Assembly: GCF_039134705.1 (NCBI RefSeq) | Contig: NZ_CP146256.1 | Location: 2,356,001 to 2,420,000, forward strand | Reading direction: 5' to 3' | DNA length: 64,000 bases | Origin: Kineothrix sp. IPX-CK | Lineage (GTDB): Bacteria; Bacillota; Clostridia; Lachnospirales; Lachnospiraceae | Part shown: positions 57,489-64,000 of the stretch, one piece after another | How the letters are laid out: every line of letters starts with the position of its first letter | Numbering within the stretch: the stretch's first letter is position 1 | Translations under genes and position numbers: made by a program | Notes under the pieces: generated by a model | What the model was told of the DNA's origin: nothing | Databases searched by the model: none | What the model saw: only the letters and a program-made list of their open reading frames with translations

Positions 57489-57508
57489 TCATAATATGAA
57501 ATTATGGT
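57478..57508 (-). terminator. Possible terminator after the recombinase gene
   Basis: CATAAT/ATTATG stem (57490-57506) followed on the minus strand by ATTATTTTTT. Confidence 0.4.
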
Positions 57509-58572
57509 TCCCGCAATTTGACGGCTTTTGCCGCCTTGCGCCTGCGCTCGTCCTCCAGCGCGGCATAATGCTTTCTCGTCGTATTGACGTCCTTATGGCC
57601 GAGAACATCAGCCACCAGATAAATATCTCCGGTTTCACGGTAAAGAGAGGTTCCATAGGTGCTTCGAAGCTTATGCGGAGTTATTTTCTTAAGTGTCGTC
57701 ACCGTGGACGCGTATTTTTTAACCAGATTTTCGACGGCGCGGACAGTGATTCTGCGGTTCTGCATGGATAGAAACAAAGCATTTTCATGACCGGAGAGGG
57801 GAATAGTGTGATGCCTTTGCTCCAAATAGCTTCTAAGTGACTCCTCCACCTCGTCCCCGAAATAAACGACCGTTTCATAACCGCCTTTGCGCCGGATTTT
57901 AATACCGTTATTTTTAAAATCAACGTCTTCCAAGTCGAGGCCTACGCACTCGGACACACGAATGCCCGTGCCGAGCAGGAGAGTGAGCAGGGCAGTGTCT
58001 CTAACCTTTGTTTTTTCGTGGTATTTCAATTGACTTTTGGTAAGCTTGGTGCCGTCCTCCACCTGATCCAGCAGCACCGCTACTTCGTCTGCATCAAGAC
58101 GTATGATTTCCTTTTCATGAAGCTTGGGCATAGGAACGAGAACTGCCGGATTATTTCTTATGAGCTCGGATTGATAGAAATAATTGTAAAAACTCCTTAA
58201 AGAAGCCAGTTTACGTGCCTTCCCGCGCTCCTCATTAGTGATTTCCTTATCGTCCTTTTGATAAAAGCTTATGTATTCCAGATATTCCTCTATATCTTCT
58301 CTGGTAATGTCATCCAGCATAGACAGCGGGAAGTCCTTGATTTCCATTTTTTTGCAATAGCTGTTATTTTCGTGCATATACTCGAAAAACACCCGCAAGT
58401 CATACGCGTATGCAAGCCGTGTCTTAGAGGAGGTATTGTTTTCGATTCCTCTGAAAAATTGTTTGCAGAAGGGTGGCAGCTCAGAAAGAACATTTCTCAT
58501 GCGAGTCGTATTCAGTTTATTCTGTTCATCGTGATAATTCTTTTTGCTTTCCATATTAATAAAATCGGCCAT
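57502..58572 (-). CDS. Tyrosine recombinase (XerC/XerD-like)
   Basis: 356 aa. N-terminal SAM-like core-binding domain (residues about 30-160), catalytic domain with Arg in GTGIRVSECVGL, His-x-x-Arg in HKLRSTYG, His in LGHKDVNTT and nucleophile Tyr in RKHYA. Could resolve chromosome dimers or be an integrase; it has no attL/attR visible. The ATG lies directly after AAAGG, so the real start may differ. Confidence 0.88.
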   Translation of the reverse strand: MADFINMESKKNYHDEQNKLNTTRMRNVLSELPPFCKQFFRGIENNTSSKTRLAYAYDLRVFFEYMHENNSYCKKMEIKDFPLSMLDDITREDIEEYLEYISFYQKDDKEITNEERGKARKLASLRSFYNYFYQSELIRNNPAVLVPMPKLHEKEIIRLDADEVAVLLDQVEDGTKLTKSQLKYHEKTKVRDTALLTLLLGTGIRVSECVGLDLEDVDFKNNGIKIRRKGGYETVVYFGDEVEESLRSYLEQRHHTIPLSGHENALFLSMQNRRITVRAVENLVKKYASTVTTLKKITPHKLRSTYGTSLYRETGDIYLVADVLGHKDVNTTRKHYAALEDERRRKAAKAVKLREP

Positions 58573-60917: not shown

Positions 60918-62078
60918 TTAAATAAGGAATAACTTTAATTTACCATCTTCATATTTGGCCGACTGTATTTCTTTGCTTTTTATACTGTCGGGTAATAAAA
61001 AACGCCGTCTTTCGTTTTTAATGCTTAAGATCAATTCTCCGCCCTTTTGATTTAAATCCATTTCCTGTTTATCAGCAAAAGGAAGATTAATTTCCATGCG
61101 GTAGCCTTCCTCACATTTATGAACCGTAAATATCTTTTCTTTAGCAAATACCGCGGTTGGCTCCTGATCCTGATACAGTATCCAGGCAACCTCTTCAAGC
61201 ACCGGCAAGGATCTGATTTCCTTCTGCTGCAGCTCCAGTCTGAAAATCGGAAGCTTATGAAAGCTTTCTTCTATCTCCGTAATCCCTTCCTCTTGAAGCT
61301 TTACCCAATGATTAAAATAACCTTCCAATGCCTTACCCGGATAGATCCGGTTTATAATGATTGCATCAACATTATAATTATACATATGAAGACAGGTATA
61401 ATTTCGTTTCGCCTCTTTAATTACAATTTTCTCCGGTGTCGTAACGATTCTCAGACTGACTATCTCCTTATTGCTCATAAGCTTCTGCAACGCTCCCAAT
61501 CGTGCTGTTAATGCGTCAATATCATCAAATACATCATCCTTTGGCATAGGTACTTTTGCTAATTTTTCAATCAGTGGTCCTCCTATTTTAGCTGCTTTGC
61601 GTTTCATCGGAAGCACCTTCTCTATAAAGCCTCCGAACATCTCCGGGAATTTAAGCAGGGAAAGTGTCTCACCGGTTGGTGCACAATCTACAATAAGAAC
61701 GTCGTAATCCCCCTTTTCATAGTAATCAAGTATCTTTAACAATGAAAATAATTCTTCCAGTCCGGGAAATACCAGCAATTCTTCCGCTTCCAGACCGCTC
61801 TGGGAGCGCGAGGTCAGAATCTGCTTTATATAGCTTTGCATATTCCCCCAGGCCTCTTCACTTTCTGCTACAGCATCTATCTCCATCGCATATAAATGAT
61901 CCGAAACCATAACCGGTTTATTGTTAAGTTTTTGCTCAAAGGAATCTCCAAGGCTATGCGCCTGATCCGTGCTCATAATCAATACTTTTTTACCGCTGCG
62001 TGCAATCTTGCAGGCGGTGGCAGCCGCAATGCTGGTTTTGCCAACGCCACCTTTACCGGTATATAATATTATTCTCAT
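60918..62078 (-). CDS. ArsA/Get3-type ATPase with HSP20-like tail (second copy)
   Basis: 386 aa. Deviant Walker A TGKGGVGKTS, switch I STDQAHSLGDSF, switch II DCAPTGETLSLLKFPE, and a C-terminal ~70-residue alpha-crystallin-like sandwich (GYRMEINLPFADKQEMDL, ILSIKNERRRFLLP). Arsenite- and tail-anchor-binding features of ArsA and Get3 (Cys triad, hydrophobic groove) are not seen. GGAGG supports the ATG at 62078. Last gene of the MarR-ArsA-small-ArsA set; no arsB or arsenite permease nearby. Confidence 0.88.
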   Translation of the reverse strand: MRIILYTGKGGVGKTSIAAATACKIARSGKKVLIMSTDQAHSLGDSFEQKLNNKPVMVSDHLYAMEIDAVAESEEAWGNMQSYIKQILTSRSQSGLEAEELLVFPGLEELFSLLKILDYYEKGDYDVLIVDCAPTGETLSLLKFPEMFGGFIEKVLPMKRKAAKIGGPLIEKLAKVPMPKDDVFDDIDALTARLGALQKLMSNKEIVSLRIVTTPEKIVIKEAKRNYTCLHMYNYNVDAIIINRIYPGKALEGYFNHWVKLQEEGITEIEESFHKLPIFRLELQQKEIRSLPVLEEVAWILYQDQEPTAVFAKEKIFTVHKCEEGYRMEINLPFADKQEMDLNQKGGELILSIKNERRRFLLPDSIKSKEIQSAKYEDGKLKLFLI

Positions 62079-62147
62079 AATGCCTCCATTTCTGCCGCAT
62101 GGCAGTTCAAATCTAATCATAAACAAAAAGTATGTTATATGCTTTTG

Positions 62148-62372
62148 TTAACTAATATCAACCTTTTGGACCTTGCCTTGGTCTGCTCCGCCGTTCTTTT
62201 CATCCTCCTTTTTACCCACAATGCATTCTGCTATACACTCCAGAAACATTGCTTTCATTTCCTTCTCAATTACTTCAACATGACCGCGTACGTTCGCTGG
62301 CAGGATAAGCATATAGGCTTCCTTTTCCAACTTTTTAGCTTCTTTCATTTTATCGATAAATTCTCTTTTCAT
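62148..62372 (-). CDS. Small helical protein between the two ArsA genes
   Basis: 74 aa, cytoplasmic, helical: MKREFIDKMKEAKKLEKEAY, then LPANVRGHVEVIEKEMK and AMFLECIAECIVGKK with two Cys, then a charged tail. GGAG lies 6 nt before the ATG. No family recognised. Fixed between the two ATPase genes and probably their partner. Confidence 0.7.
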   Translation of the reverse strand: MKREFIDKMKEAKKLEKEAYMLILPANVRGHVEVIEKEMKAMFLECIAECIVGKKEDEKNGGADQGKVQKVDIS

Positions 62373-62427
62373 ATGCTGCTCCTATCTGCGTGCCTGACAC
62401 ACCATAAAATTCCATAGCTTTATTATT

Positions 62428-63603
62428 TTAATCGACCTCTTTTACAAATCGGATATTTAATATCTGTTCTTCTGCTTTTGCTGATATAATGCGATAATTT
62501 CTCAGGGAGTTCGGTATCGGAATATTTCTTTTGAAATTACCGATCTTAATGATTAAGTCCGTTCCTGACTGGCGCAGGTCAATATCCTCCTTTTTAATAC
62601 AGGGGAGATATAAACTGAGACGGTATCCCTCTTCTGTTGCTTCGTACATTTCTCCCGGTTGATTCTTCCTGATTTCAAATAACTCGGGCTGGTCAAGAAC
62701 CTCCTCACATAACTGATCAATCGCCTCCAGACCGCATAAATCCGTATCATACCAGCGGATATAATAGACCGCCCGGTCGCTGAATACATTCTCAATTTCC
62801 TCAATATATTTCTTCTGAATGTCTAACCACTTATCAAAAAACGGATTACCGATATCACCTGGCAGAATGCGATTAATAAACACTCCATCCACATTAAAAT
62901 TATAGAGATTCATATACATATAATTGCGCTTTGTCTCCTCTACGACCATCTTTTCGGGAATGGTTACCAATCGTATCGAGGTCACATCGTCATCCTTTAA
63001 TAATTCCTGCAGTTGAATCAGCCTCACATATAGCCGCTCAATGTCACTCATCGCTGCCTTATCCGGCAGCTCTACCTCAAACATCTTTTTTGATATTGGG
63101 GAAAGAACCCGTATCGCCAGCTTGCCGACAGGGAAAAACTTCTCCATATACCAGGACATAAGCTCCGGAAACTTAAGCAAAGACAGTGTTTCTCCCGTAG
63201 GCGCACAGTCCACAATAATACGTTCATATTTGCCGCTTTCATAGATATCAAGTATTTTCAGCAGCGAGAACAGTTCTTCCATTCCCGGAAGCATAACAAC
63301 ATCCTCTTGCGCGCTGCCGTTCCTGTCCGGTGGTGCAATCATATTCATGAAGGCCGTCATGATATTCTTAAAATCATGCTCCATAACATAATTCGGATCA
63401 ATCTCCAGCACATCCAAATATTTGGATATCTCGCTCGTTTCCCTGCCAAAAGACATATCAAATAAATCGCTGAGATTATGGGCCATATCCGTACTGACAA
63501 GCAACGTCTTCTTATTCTCTTTCTCCGATTTTCTGGCATGAGCCGCTGCAACCGAAGTCTTTCCTACTCCGCCTTTTCCTGTAAAAATTAATATTCTGCT
63601 CAT
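62428..63603 (-). CDS. ArsA/Get3-type ATPase with HSP20-like tail (first copy)
   Basis: 391 aa, paralogue of the downstream ATPase. Walker A TGKGGVGKTS, switch I STDMAHNLSDLF, DCAPTGETLSLLKFPE, and the C-terminal HSP20-like part (GYRLSLYLPCIKKEDIDL). The two copies share motifs but diverge elsewhere, as expected for subunits of a heterodimer. The ATG at 63603 (MSRILIF) with GGAG 9 nt upstream is preferred over ATG 63612. Confidence 0.88.
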   Translation of the reverse strand: MSRILIFTGKGGVGKTSVAAAHARKSEKENKKTLLVSTDMAHNLSDLFDMSFGRETSEISKYLDVLEIDPNYVMEHDFKNIMTAFMNMIAPPDRNGSAQEDVVMLPGMEELFSLLKILDIYESGKYERIIVDCAPTGETLSLLKFPELMSWYMEKFFPVGKLAIRVLSPISKKMFEVELPDKAAMSDIERLYVRLIQLQELLKDDDVTSIRLVTIPEKMVVEETKRNYMYMNLYNFNVDGVFINRILPGDIGNPFFDKWLDIQKKYIEEIENVFSDRAVYYIRWYDTDLCGLEAIDQLCEEVLDQPELFEIRKNQPGEMYEATEEGYRLSLYLPCIKKEDIDLRQSGTDLIIKIGNFKRNIPIPNSLRNYRIISAKAEEQILNIRFVKEVD

Positions 63604-63694
63604 AGTAGTCATCTCCTTAATTCGGCCTCCGAATAGTTCTTCTTTCGAAGTATTTGTTATGATTTTAGCTGCCGAATATTACGACAGCTTTTTT
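63604..63694 (-). promoter_or_regulatory. Dyads between the MarR and ArsA genes
   Basis: On the minus strand AGCTGTCG-TAATATT-CGGCAGCT is an imperfect inverted repeat and TTCGG-AGG-CCGAA a perfect one, in the 91-bp gap ahead of the first ArsA gene. Either could be a MarR operator or mRNA stem. Confidence 0.45.
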
Positions 63695-64000
63695 CTAATC
63701 AATTTGTATTTTTCTGATTTTTGTTCTTTGCTCTGCTTTTTCCCTTTGCTTATATTCATCCATAAGTATATAAATTCCTTTGTCAATCATTTTAAATATT
63801 AACTGCACTTCCTCTGCCGTATAATTGTTAAGTATCACCTGTCCGTAATGCAGGAATTCTTTCATGATTCTTTGAATACATTCCTTCCCCTCGTTCGTTA
63901 AACGAATGGTCACAATTCTCTTATCCTCAGGACTTCTCTCCCGAACAACAATTCCCTTCTTTTCCATGCGGGTTACGATTCCTGTCGCAGTATTGAGCGG
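63695..64000 (-). CDS. MarR-family regulator, C-terminal part
   Basis: Partial: the N-terminus lies outside the window. 101 codons remain, reading in minus frame from the edge PLNTATGIVTR then MEKKGIVVRERSPEDKR, the recognition helix, wing and Asp-x-Arg of MarR winged helices, followed by the dimerisation helix. Immediately upstream of the ArsA set on the same strand, so its likely regulator. Confidence 0.88.
   Translation of the reverse strand, partial: PLNTATGIVTRMEKKGIVVRERSPEDKRIVTIRLTNEGKECIQRIMKEFLHYGQVILNNYTAEEVQLIFKMIDKGIYILMDEYKQREKAEQRTKIRKIQID

Follow-up and report, generated by a model that had tools for sequence, protein, structure and literature searches.

The Get3d proteins (AtGet3d, NosGet3d; PDB 8elf, 8egk, 3igf) have been tied to photosynthesis; in the accessible text of their description they have no known partner, feature a hydrophobic chamber and retained a transmembrane client in pull-down experiments, and the role of their alpha-crystallin domain is unclear, for which new partners would be needed (PMC10248533). 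In this study, a four-gene cassette encoding a MarR regulator, two ArsA-type ATPases (ArsA-A and ArsA-B) and a 74-aa small protein was analyzed at the end of a 64,000-nt stretch of the Kineothrix sp. IPX-CK genome (contig NZ_CP146256.1, positions 2,356,001 to 2,420,000; hereafter the window). Similar to Get3d, both window ATPases carry a C-terminal alpha-crystallin domain (PF17886); in contrast to Get3d, they occur in Clostridia, are duplicated, and are accompanied by MarR and the small protein. They also resemble the mycobacterial BagA/BagB (Rv3679/Rv3680), two diverged and interacting Get3-like ATPases (PDB 6bs3; PMC10597346). However, the best scores of the window ATPases were 45 and 54 bits, against BagA/BagB cut-offs of 400 (NF053622) and 521 (NF053621). 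To our knowledge, BagA/BagB have no small partner or tag. Further, the C-terminal IxI/IPV motif of small heat shock proteins (sHSPs) binds the beta4-beta8 groove of the alpha-crystallin domain, and the IPV motifs of BAG3 use the same groove (PMC6212398, PMC6119766); the term 'IxI' has 0 occurrences in the main text of the Get3d paper (PMC10248533). No description of the operon, the tag or the small protein was found in the literature that was accessible, preprints and most subscription papers being outside its scope.

The MarR regulator and the small protein of the cassette share a C-terminal tag, roughly K-[IV]-x-[KN]-[IV]-x-I-[DE], and in both of them, as in the IxI/IPV ligands, an [IV]x[IV] motif is placed on a flexible tail. 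This IxI-type tag, missed by the initial annotation of the window, gives the strongest indication of the way in which the cassette components are connected. In MarR, the tag follows a variable linker and reads KIRKIQID in the window (63698..63721, minus strand) and KIRKIMIE or KVRKIPIS in relatives, and that of the small protein reads VQKVDIS (62151..62171, minus strand), with K70 and I73 unchanged across 12 sequences. Across 101 loci, wherever a MarR gene lies no more than 400 bp from ArsA-HSP20, its product ends in [IV]x[IV] plus at most two residues (34 of 34), compared with 24 of 705 in a background of other genes, all 100 aa or longer. The tag was absent from all 20 other MarR_2 matches in the window's genome, some of which are not true MarRs, and an extended MarR-tail pattern occurred once in that genome, in the cassette MarR. 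Because the Ile and Val codons vary, 44 small-gene tags drawing on the full sets of three Ile and four Val codons and 34 MarR tags on each of the three Ile codons, selection on the tag is at the protein level. On balance, the cassette is probably a self-regulated chaperone or targeting module on a Get3d-type ATPase pair, in which the tags would dock in the HSP20 grooves and MarR would sense the load.

The four genes lie on the minus strand in the order MarR, ArsA-A(HSP20), 74-aa protein and ArsA-B(HSP20), and both the open reading frames (ORFs) and the Pfam domains agree with this layout as first annotated. The window holds the C-terminal 101 of the 164 MarR residues (63695..64000), the gene extending beyond the window end, where its full length was read (L009 7696-8190); the C-terminal piece scored 32.6 bits with PF01047 (cut-off 24.6), and the full gene is a MarR_2 match of 43.7 bits. 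ArsA-A (62428..63603) and the 386-aa ArsA-B (60918..62078), assigned from their ORFs, Pfam domains and clades, are Get3/ArsA ATPases with a C-terminal alpha-crystallin-like domain. They matched ArsA_ATPase with 283 and 270 bits and the GET3/ArsA/TRC40 family TIGR00345 with 245.8 and 238.9 bits, above the curated cut-off of 135, and ArsA_HSP20 (PF17886, cut-off 22.5) was placed at 62446..62631 in ArsA-A (83.6 bits) and at 60933..61109 in ArsA-B (76.8 bits). The second ATG of ArsA-A is the likelier start, because the first lies directly on the Shine-Dalgarno sequence. The small-protein gene (62148..62372) encodes a helical N-terminal part, a variable linker and the C-terminal tag, as delimited by the ORF and the homologue alignment. 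In the surroundings, a putative XerC/D-type tyrosine recombinase frame (57502-58572, minus strand) a few kb off the cassette could bear on its patchy spread, and a putative small ArsR-like regulator and two membrane-protein genes are divergent from the MarR operon (L009 8478-10218, plus strand).

ArsA-HSP20 genes were found in three of the 61 genomes searched, the window's own included, and the four-gene order was intact in both of the others (G014 and G030); the other matches (E 7e-6 to 8e-4) fell in frames that span 62-238 aa and for the most part have the size of sHSPs. In a sample from the same class, 19 of 391 genomes matched ArsA_HSP20 at E<=1e-7, and these, minus the window's, gave 18 loci from 18 genomes chosen by that match. 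MarR adjoined ArsA-HSP20 in 17 of the 18 loci, and the tagged small protein, whose absence from most loci the initial annotation had named as the finding that would speak against its proposal, was linked in 16 (L152, in which the sequence of the tagged gene has an ambiguous base, was counted). One locus carries a truncated small-protein copy (L156), and another has a single ATPase with neither MarR nor small protein (L161). Chance is excluded because the cassette recurs in this manner.

A further 80 named loci were the best 80 of 490 relatives, chosen by similarity. Two cassette forms, MarR-ArsA-small and MarR-A-small-B, were recognized, and MarR was adjacent in 34 of 41 tabulated loci (39 Firmicutes, Eggerthella and Micropruina), three of the seven without it starting near a contig edge (L069, L082, L105). 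The small protein lies directly 3' of ArsA in most tabulated Firmicutes loci, and the curated list has an intact tagged small gene in 27 of the 34 MarR-bearing loci. Among the other seven, which include L152 and L156, a 42-aa frame ending NVPVD (L076), a seemingly frame-shifted gene (L074), a locus at a contig edge (L085) and one in which no small gene was found (L067) were met with, and in L129 the small gene, ending IPVED, is set about 1.2 kb downstream of ArsA. This Paenibacillus small protein (L129 8396-8641) thus ends in the IPV form of the groove motif. Three loci with adjacent HSP20-bearing ATPases (L072 6001-8372, L075 5884-8443 and L114 6001-8431) look like cases of joint loss of MarR and the small protein.

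The small protein had no match in the Pfam and NCBIfam copies, in keeping with its initial description as a protein of no known family. Its helical part is built around a conserved LPE turn, the linker varies in length and sequence, and the end is of the type K-V-x-K-V-x-I. A scan of genome contigs with the single small protein as query found no relative, and a match in G088, a 49-residue stretch within a 1208-aa frame, was taken as chance. A tag-free query found 164 homologues; among the 120 listed, 119 were tagged with at most four residues after the tag, and 115 under the strict pattern (at most two). In other phyla, frames of 60-130 aa with the same end follow part of the ArsA-HSP20 genes, and one such family had 869 relatives, with 120 of the 120 listed tagged, for a query that contained the tag. 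PF27253 is similar to the window type in standing beside ArsA-HSP20 in other phyla and in its LPE..H..[KR]E core and tag, but no PF27253 assignment was found among the listed window-type homologues; hhalign of the two gave a probability of 12.7% (E 0.0023), and the L129 protein matched the other-phyla type (E 1.4e-6). Nineteen hand-picked genomes in which no tagged small gene is linked to the ArsA-HSP20 locus were also searched. One Caldilineales and two Caldilineaceae genomes among them encode the small-protein family outside the sampled ArsA locus, and these copies end in [IV]x[IV] plus five, three and one residues; no small-protein match was found in the remaining 16, including six cyanobacteria and a Chlorobiaceae genome. 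In the actinobacterial L130, a 149-aa ORF overlaps the ArsA end, with a weak DUF5304 match (E 4.9e-5, below the cut-off) and an internal EHIPVDD stretch, which may be another form of tagged partner.

Linked tagged small ORFs were then counted with four tag patterns (strict, relaxed, charged and basic, in this order below), in lineage groups assigned by hand, L100, which is actinobacterial in the tree, being counted under other lineages. Matches were obtained in 24, 31, 29 and 25 of 39 Firmicutes loci, 5, 5, 5 and 6 of 15 Actinomycetota loci, and 0, 2, 2 and 1 of 23 cyanobacterial loci, and, under each of the four patterns, in 4 of 12 Chloroflexota loci, 6 of 10 loci of other lineages and both archaeal loci; the controls gave 15, 26, 20 and 22 of 543. 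Two of the 31 relaxed Firmicutes matches (L072, L075) look like chance ORFs and were left out of the curated list. With a 45-aa floor, the strict counts were 23/39 for Firmicutes, 5/15 for Actinomycetota, 6/10 for other lineages, 4/12 for Chloroflexota, 2/2 for archaea, 0/23 for cyanobacteria and 13/543 for the control. Of 19 loci whose ArsA or Get3 is, judging from its length, without the HSP20 domain, one had a tagged small neighbor, which is the ArsC of the arsenic operon.

An operator-like palindrome, AATACTTC-N7-GAACTATT, lies in the spacer between MarR and ArsA-A (63632..63654), and a second one in the MarR promoter region outside the window (genome 2420206-2420228); these are exactly two exact sites in the 4.72-Mb genome. 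At one mismatch, 11 further places occur in the genome, and a reversed-pattern control gave three at up to one mismatch. Among 33 loci, a 23-bp palindrome of the pattern AATANTTC-N7-GAANTATT, with at most two mismatches, was found upstream of MarR in 26 and likewise in 26 of the MarR-ArsA spacers, as compared with about 0.6% (upstream) and 0.5% (spacer) of 660 letter shuffles each, in which dinucleotides were not kept. The promoter-like TTGACA-N17-TAGAAT, counted without a control, was exact in 14 of the 33 loci; that of the cassette MarR lies outside the window (genome 2420260-2420232), with one palindrome half-site in its spacer. The palindromes, together with the linkage of the small protein, bear out the initial idea that MarR controls the cassette and that the small protein is a partner dedicated to it. 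By eye, a hairpin after MarR and before the second palindrome is visible in the MarR-ArsA spacers of L036, L148, L150, L158 and L070, and a terminator scan of the window's own spacer flagged none on the cassette strand; given the spacer hairpins, transcript levels may differ between MarR and the ATPases.

ArsA-A and ArsA-B of the window are 38% identical. The initial annotation had called for a search for reciprocal loss of ATPase residues between them; both proteins keep the P-loop, switch I and switch II. It had also pointed to the switch II motif DCAPTGET, which is indeed present in both but does not distinguish them, and Glu as a special mark was rejected, since it occupies the His position in 84 of 118 ArsA-HSP20 proteins collected. 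The CxxC zinc motif was found in none of these 118, which is a Get3d trait, and the window ATPases scored 138 and 144 bits with NosAFP (NF050088), below the cut-off of 325. In a quick tree without bootstrap, built from ArsA-HSP20 rows and without Get3a-c or plant rows, the A and B proteins formed two separate clades of 23 rows each (SH-aLRT 100 each), which fits one old duplication followed by joint inheritance of the pair, with perhaps a transfer to the long-branched Eggerthella and Micropruina. An ArsA-A/ArsA-B heterodimer is plausible. The predicted model of a close relative (L070) has the Get3-plus-alpha-crystallin fold and aligns to 8egk over model residues 2-387. ArsA-HSP20 also occurs in Lachnospiraceae, Anoxybacillus, Actinomycetota and archaea, that is, outside the described photosynthetic range of Get3d.

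Docking of the tag was approached with AlphaFold2 (AF2) runs on read-through composites in which stops were read as Gly, namely ArsA-A with the small protein (L070; alignment of 53 rows including 5 composites) and MarR with ArsA-A (L037; 43 rows including 9 composites). In the L070 composite, residues 501-510, which include the small-protein tag, had a mean pLDDT of 73 with a strand at 506-508, and the stretches 391-433 and 481-499 were under 50; in the L037 composite, the MarR tag formed strands 162-164 and 166-167 between the stretches 156-159 and 169-210, both under 50. In a comparison made after the fact, model residue 370, in beta8, was hydrophobic in 17/17 A, 16/16 B and 87% of 23 partnered single-ATPase rows, and was Pro or Thr in 24 cyanobacterial and Chlorobiaceae rows, which have no linked partner and belong to one lineage.

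We infer groove docking, A/B pairing, a cofactor role of the small protein and a MarR feedback. A Get3d-like A/B dimer would use its HSP20 domains to hold the small protein, a dedicated cofactor that may be an adaptor or a client gate, by its tag in the beta4-beta8 groove, and the MarR tag would compete for the same sites. MarR would be a repressor whose hold on the two palindromes depends on tag capture by free ATPase, so that when the ATPases are occupied, MarR would be released or displaced and the operon output would change. With sHSPs and BAG3 the cassette shares a flexible tail bearing an [IV]x[IV] motif and an alpha-crystallin domain as the likely receptor, as far as the available texts on these describe them, but here it is a transcription regulator and a small partner that bear the motif, and an ATPase that carries the alpha-crystallin domain. 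In the HrcA-GroE and HspR-DnaK systems, the repressor of a chaperone operon is handled by that chaperone. The cassette differs from them in having another regulator family, another chaperone and a proposed docking tag; it resembles chaperone-controlled repressors in logic and BAG3-sHSP in docking, and membership in neither is claimed.

Several observations weigh against this self-sensing module. The cassette has no known client or receptor and no known link to stress. The AF2 output, whose chains are artificial composites, did not show where the tag docks, and its confidence in the small-protein helices was low (means of 42-61 over 10 residues). In the accessible part of its description, the solved Get3d alpha-crystallin domain packs on the dimer interface (PMC10248533), and similar packing here may hide part of the alpha-crystallin surface. 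By sequence, the solved structure nearest to ArsA-B is the archaeal Get3 3zq6, nearer than Get3d 3igf. Strict linked tagged ORFs were present in just 5/15 actinobacterial and 4/12 Chloroflexota loci, and cyanobacteria were near chance (0/23 strict and 2/23 relaxed, with controls of 15 and 26 of 543). Further, L072, L075 and L114 hold both ATPases and neither MarR nor the small protein, so the ATPase pair can do without these two, and all six of their rows keep a hydrophobic residue at position 370.

Beyond the Firmicutes, it is conceivable, though we would put it forward tentatively, that the ATPase-fused alpha-crystallin domain is a tag receptor in bacteria and archaea alike, at which a C-terminal IxI tag recruits helical proteins of 60-130 aa, and that in Firmicutes the MarR of the operon has gained this tag as well and reads chaperone occupancy directly by competing for one groove. 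An alternative that we consider unlikely is that the two ATPases pair into a Get3-like targeting heterodimer with the small protein as its dedicated client; the tag would then be part of what the alpha-crystallin domain recognizes in this client, and MarR would share it only in order to sense free chaperone. The position of the small gene directly after ArsA, its helices, which look amphipathic by eye, and the hydrophobic chamber of Get3d with its bound transmembrane client (PMC10248533, in its accessible text) suit such a role; however, on reading, no hydrophobic stretch of the small protein reaches the length of a membrane anchor, and recurrence in several phyla as a non-membrane protein of some 70 residues is not what one would expect of a client.

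Equally doubtful is a reading in which the tag binds elsewhere, such as the ATPase-sheet edge or another cellular protein, or is a shared proteolysis signal. C-terminal motifs are common protease signals, the AF2 output names no partner strand, and the partner-less L072, L075 and L114 retain the hydrophobic residue 370. However, tagged small neighbors are far commoner beside HSP20-bearing ArsA than beside ArsA judged by length to be HSP20-less, residue 370 is Pro or Thr in the domains of cyanobacteria and Chlorobiaceae, which have no partner linked to them and form a single lineage, and the motif is a known groove ligand in the accessible text of PMC6212398 and PMC6119766.

The genome's ars operon is at 1,283-1,288 kb, about 1.1 Mb from the cassette at 2,417-2,420 kb, and its ArsA, a two-domain protein of 591 aa with DTAPTGHT, is the one other full-strength ArsA-type gene. 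This operon (L010 3772-7696) holds ArsR, Acr3-like, ArsD, ArsA and ArsC genes, the names other than ArsA being read from the sequence. That the cassette ATPases serve arsenic or metal resistance under MarR control, as the ArsA annotation might suggest, is very improbable and was rejected, because the genome has this separate operon; the cassette is no arsenic operon, so that the second finding which the initial annotation had set against its own proposal did not come about either. In line with its statement that no arsenite pump is near, neither a pump gene such as ArsB or Acr3 nor ArsD was seen next to the cassette, whose single-domain ATPases scored 106 and 95 bits against the arsenical-pump ArsA cut-off of 650 (TIGR04291).

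For the Get3d-type family, the conserved, linked and tagged small protein provides a concrete partner candidate together with a binding motif, which can be tested with peptides. The features of this cassette suggest a self-sensing chaperone circuit that works via a shared tag. If this is true, the tag-bearing transcription factor would be a compact sensor of chaperone load, and one whose operator-like sequence has just two exact copies genome-wide.

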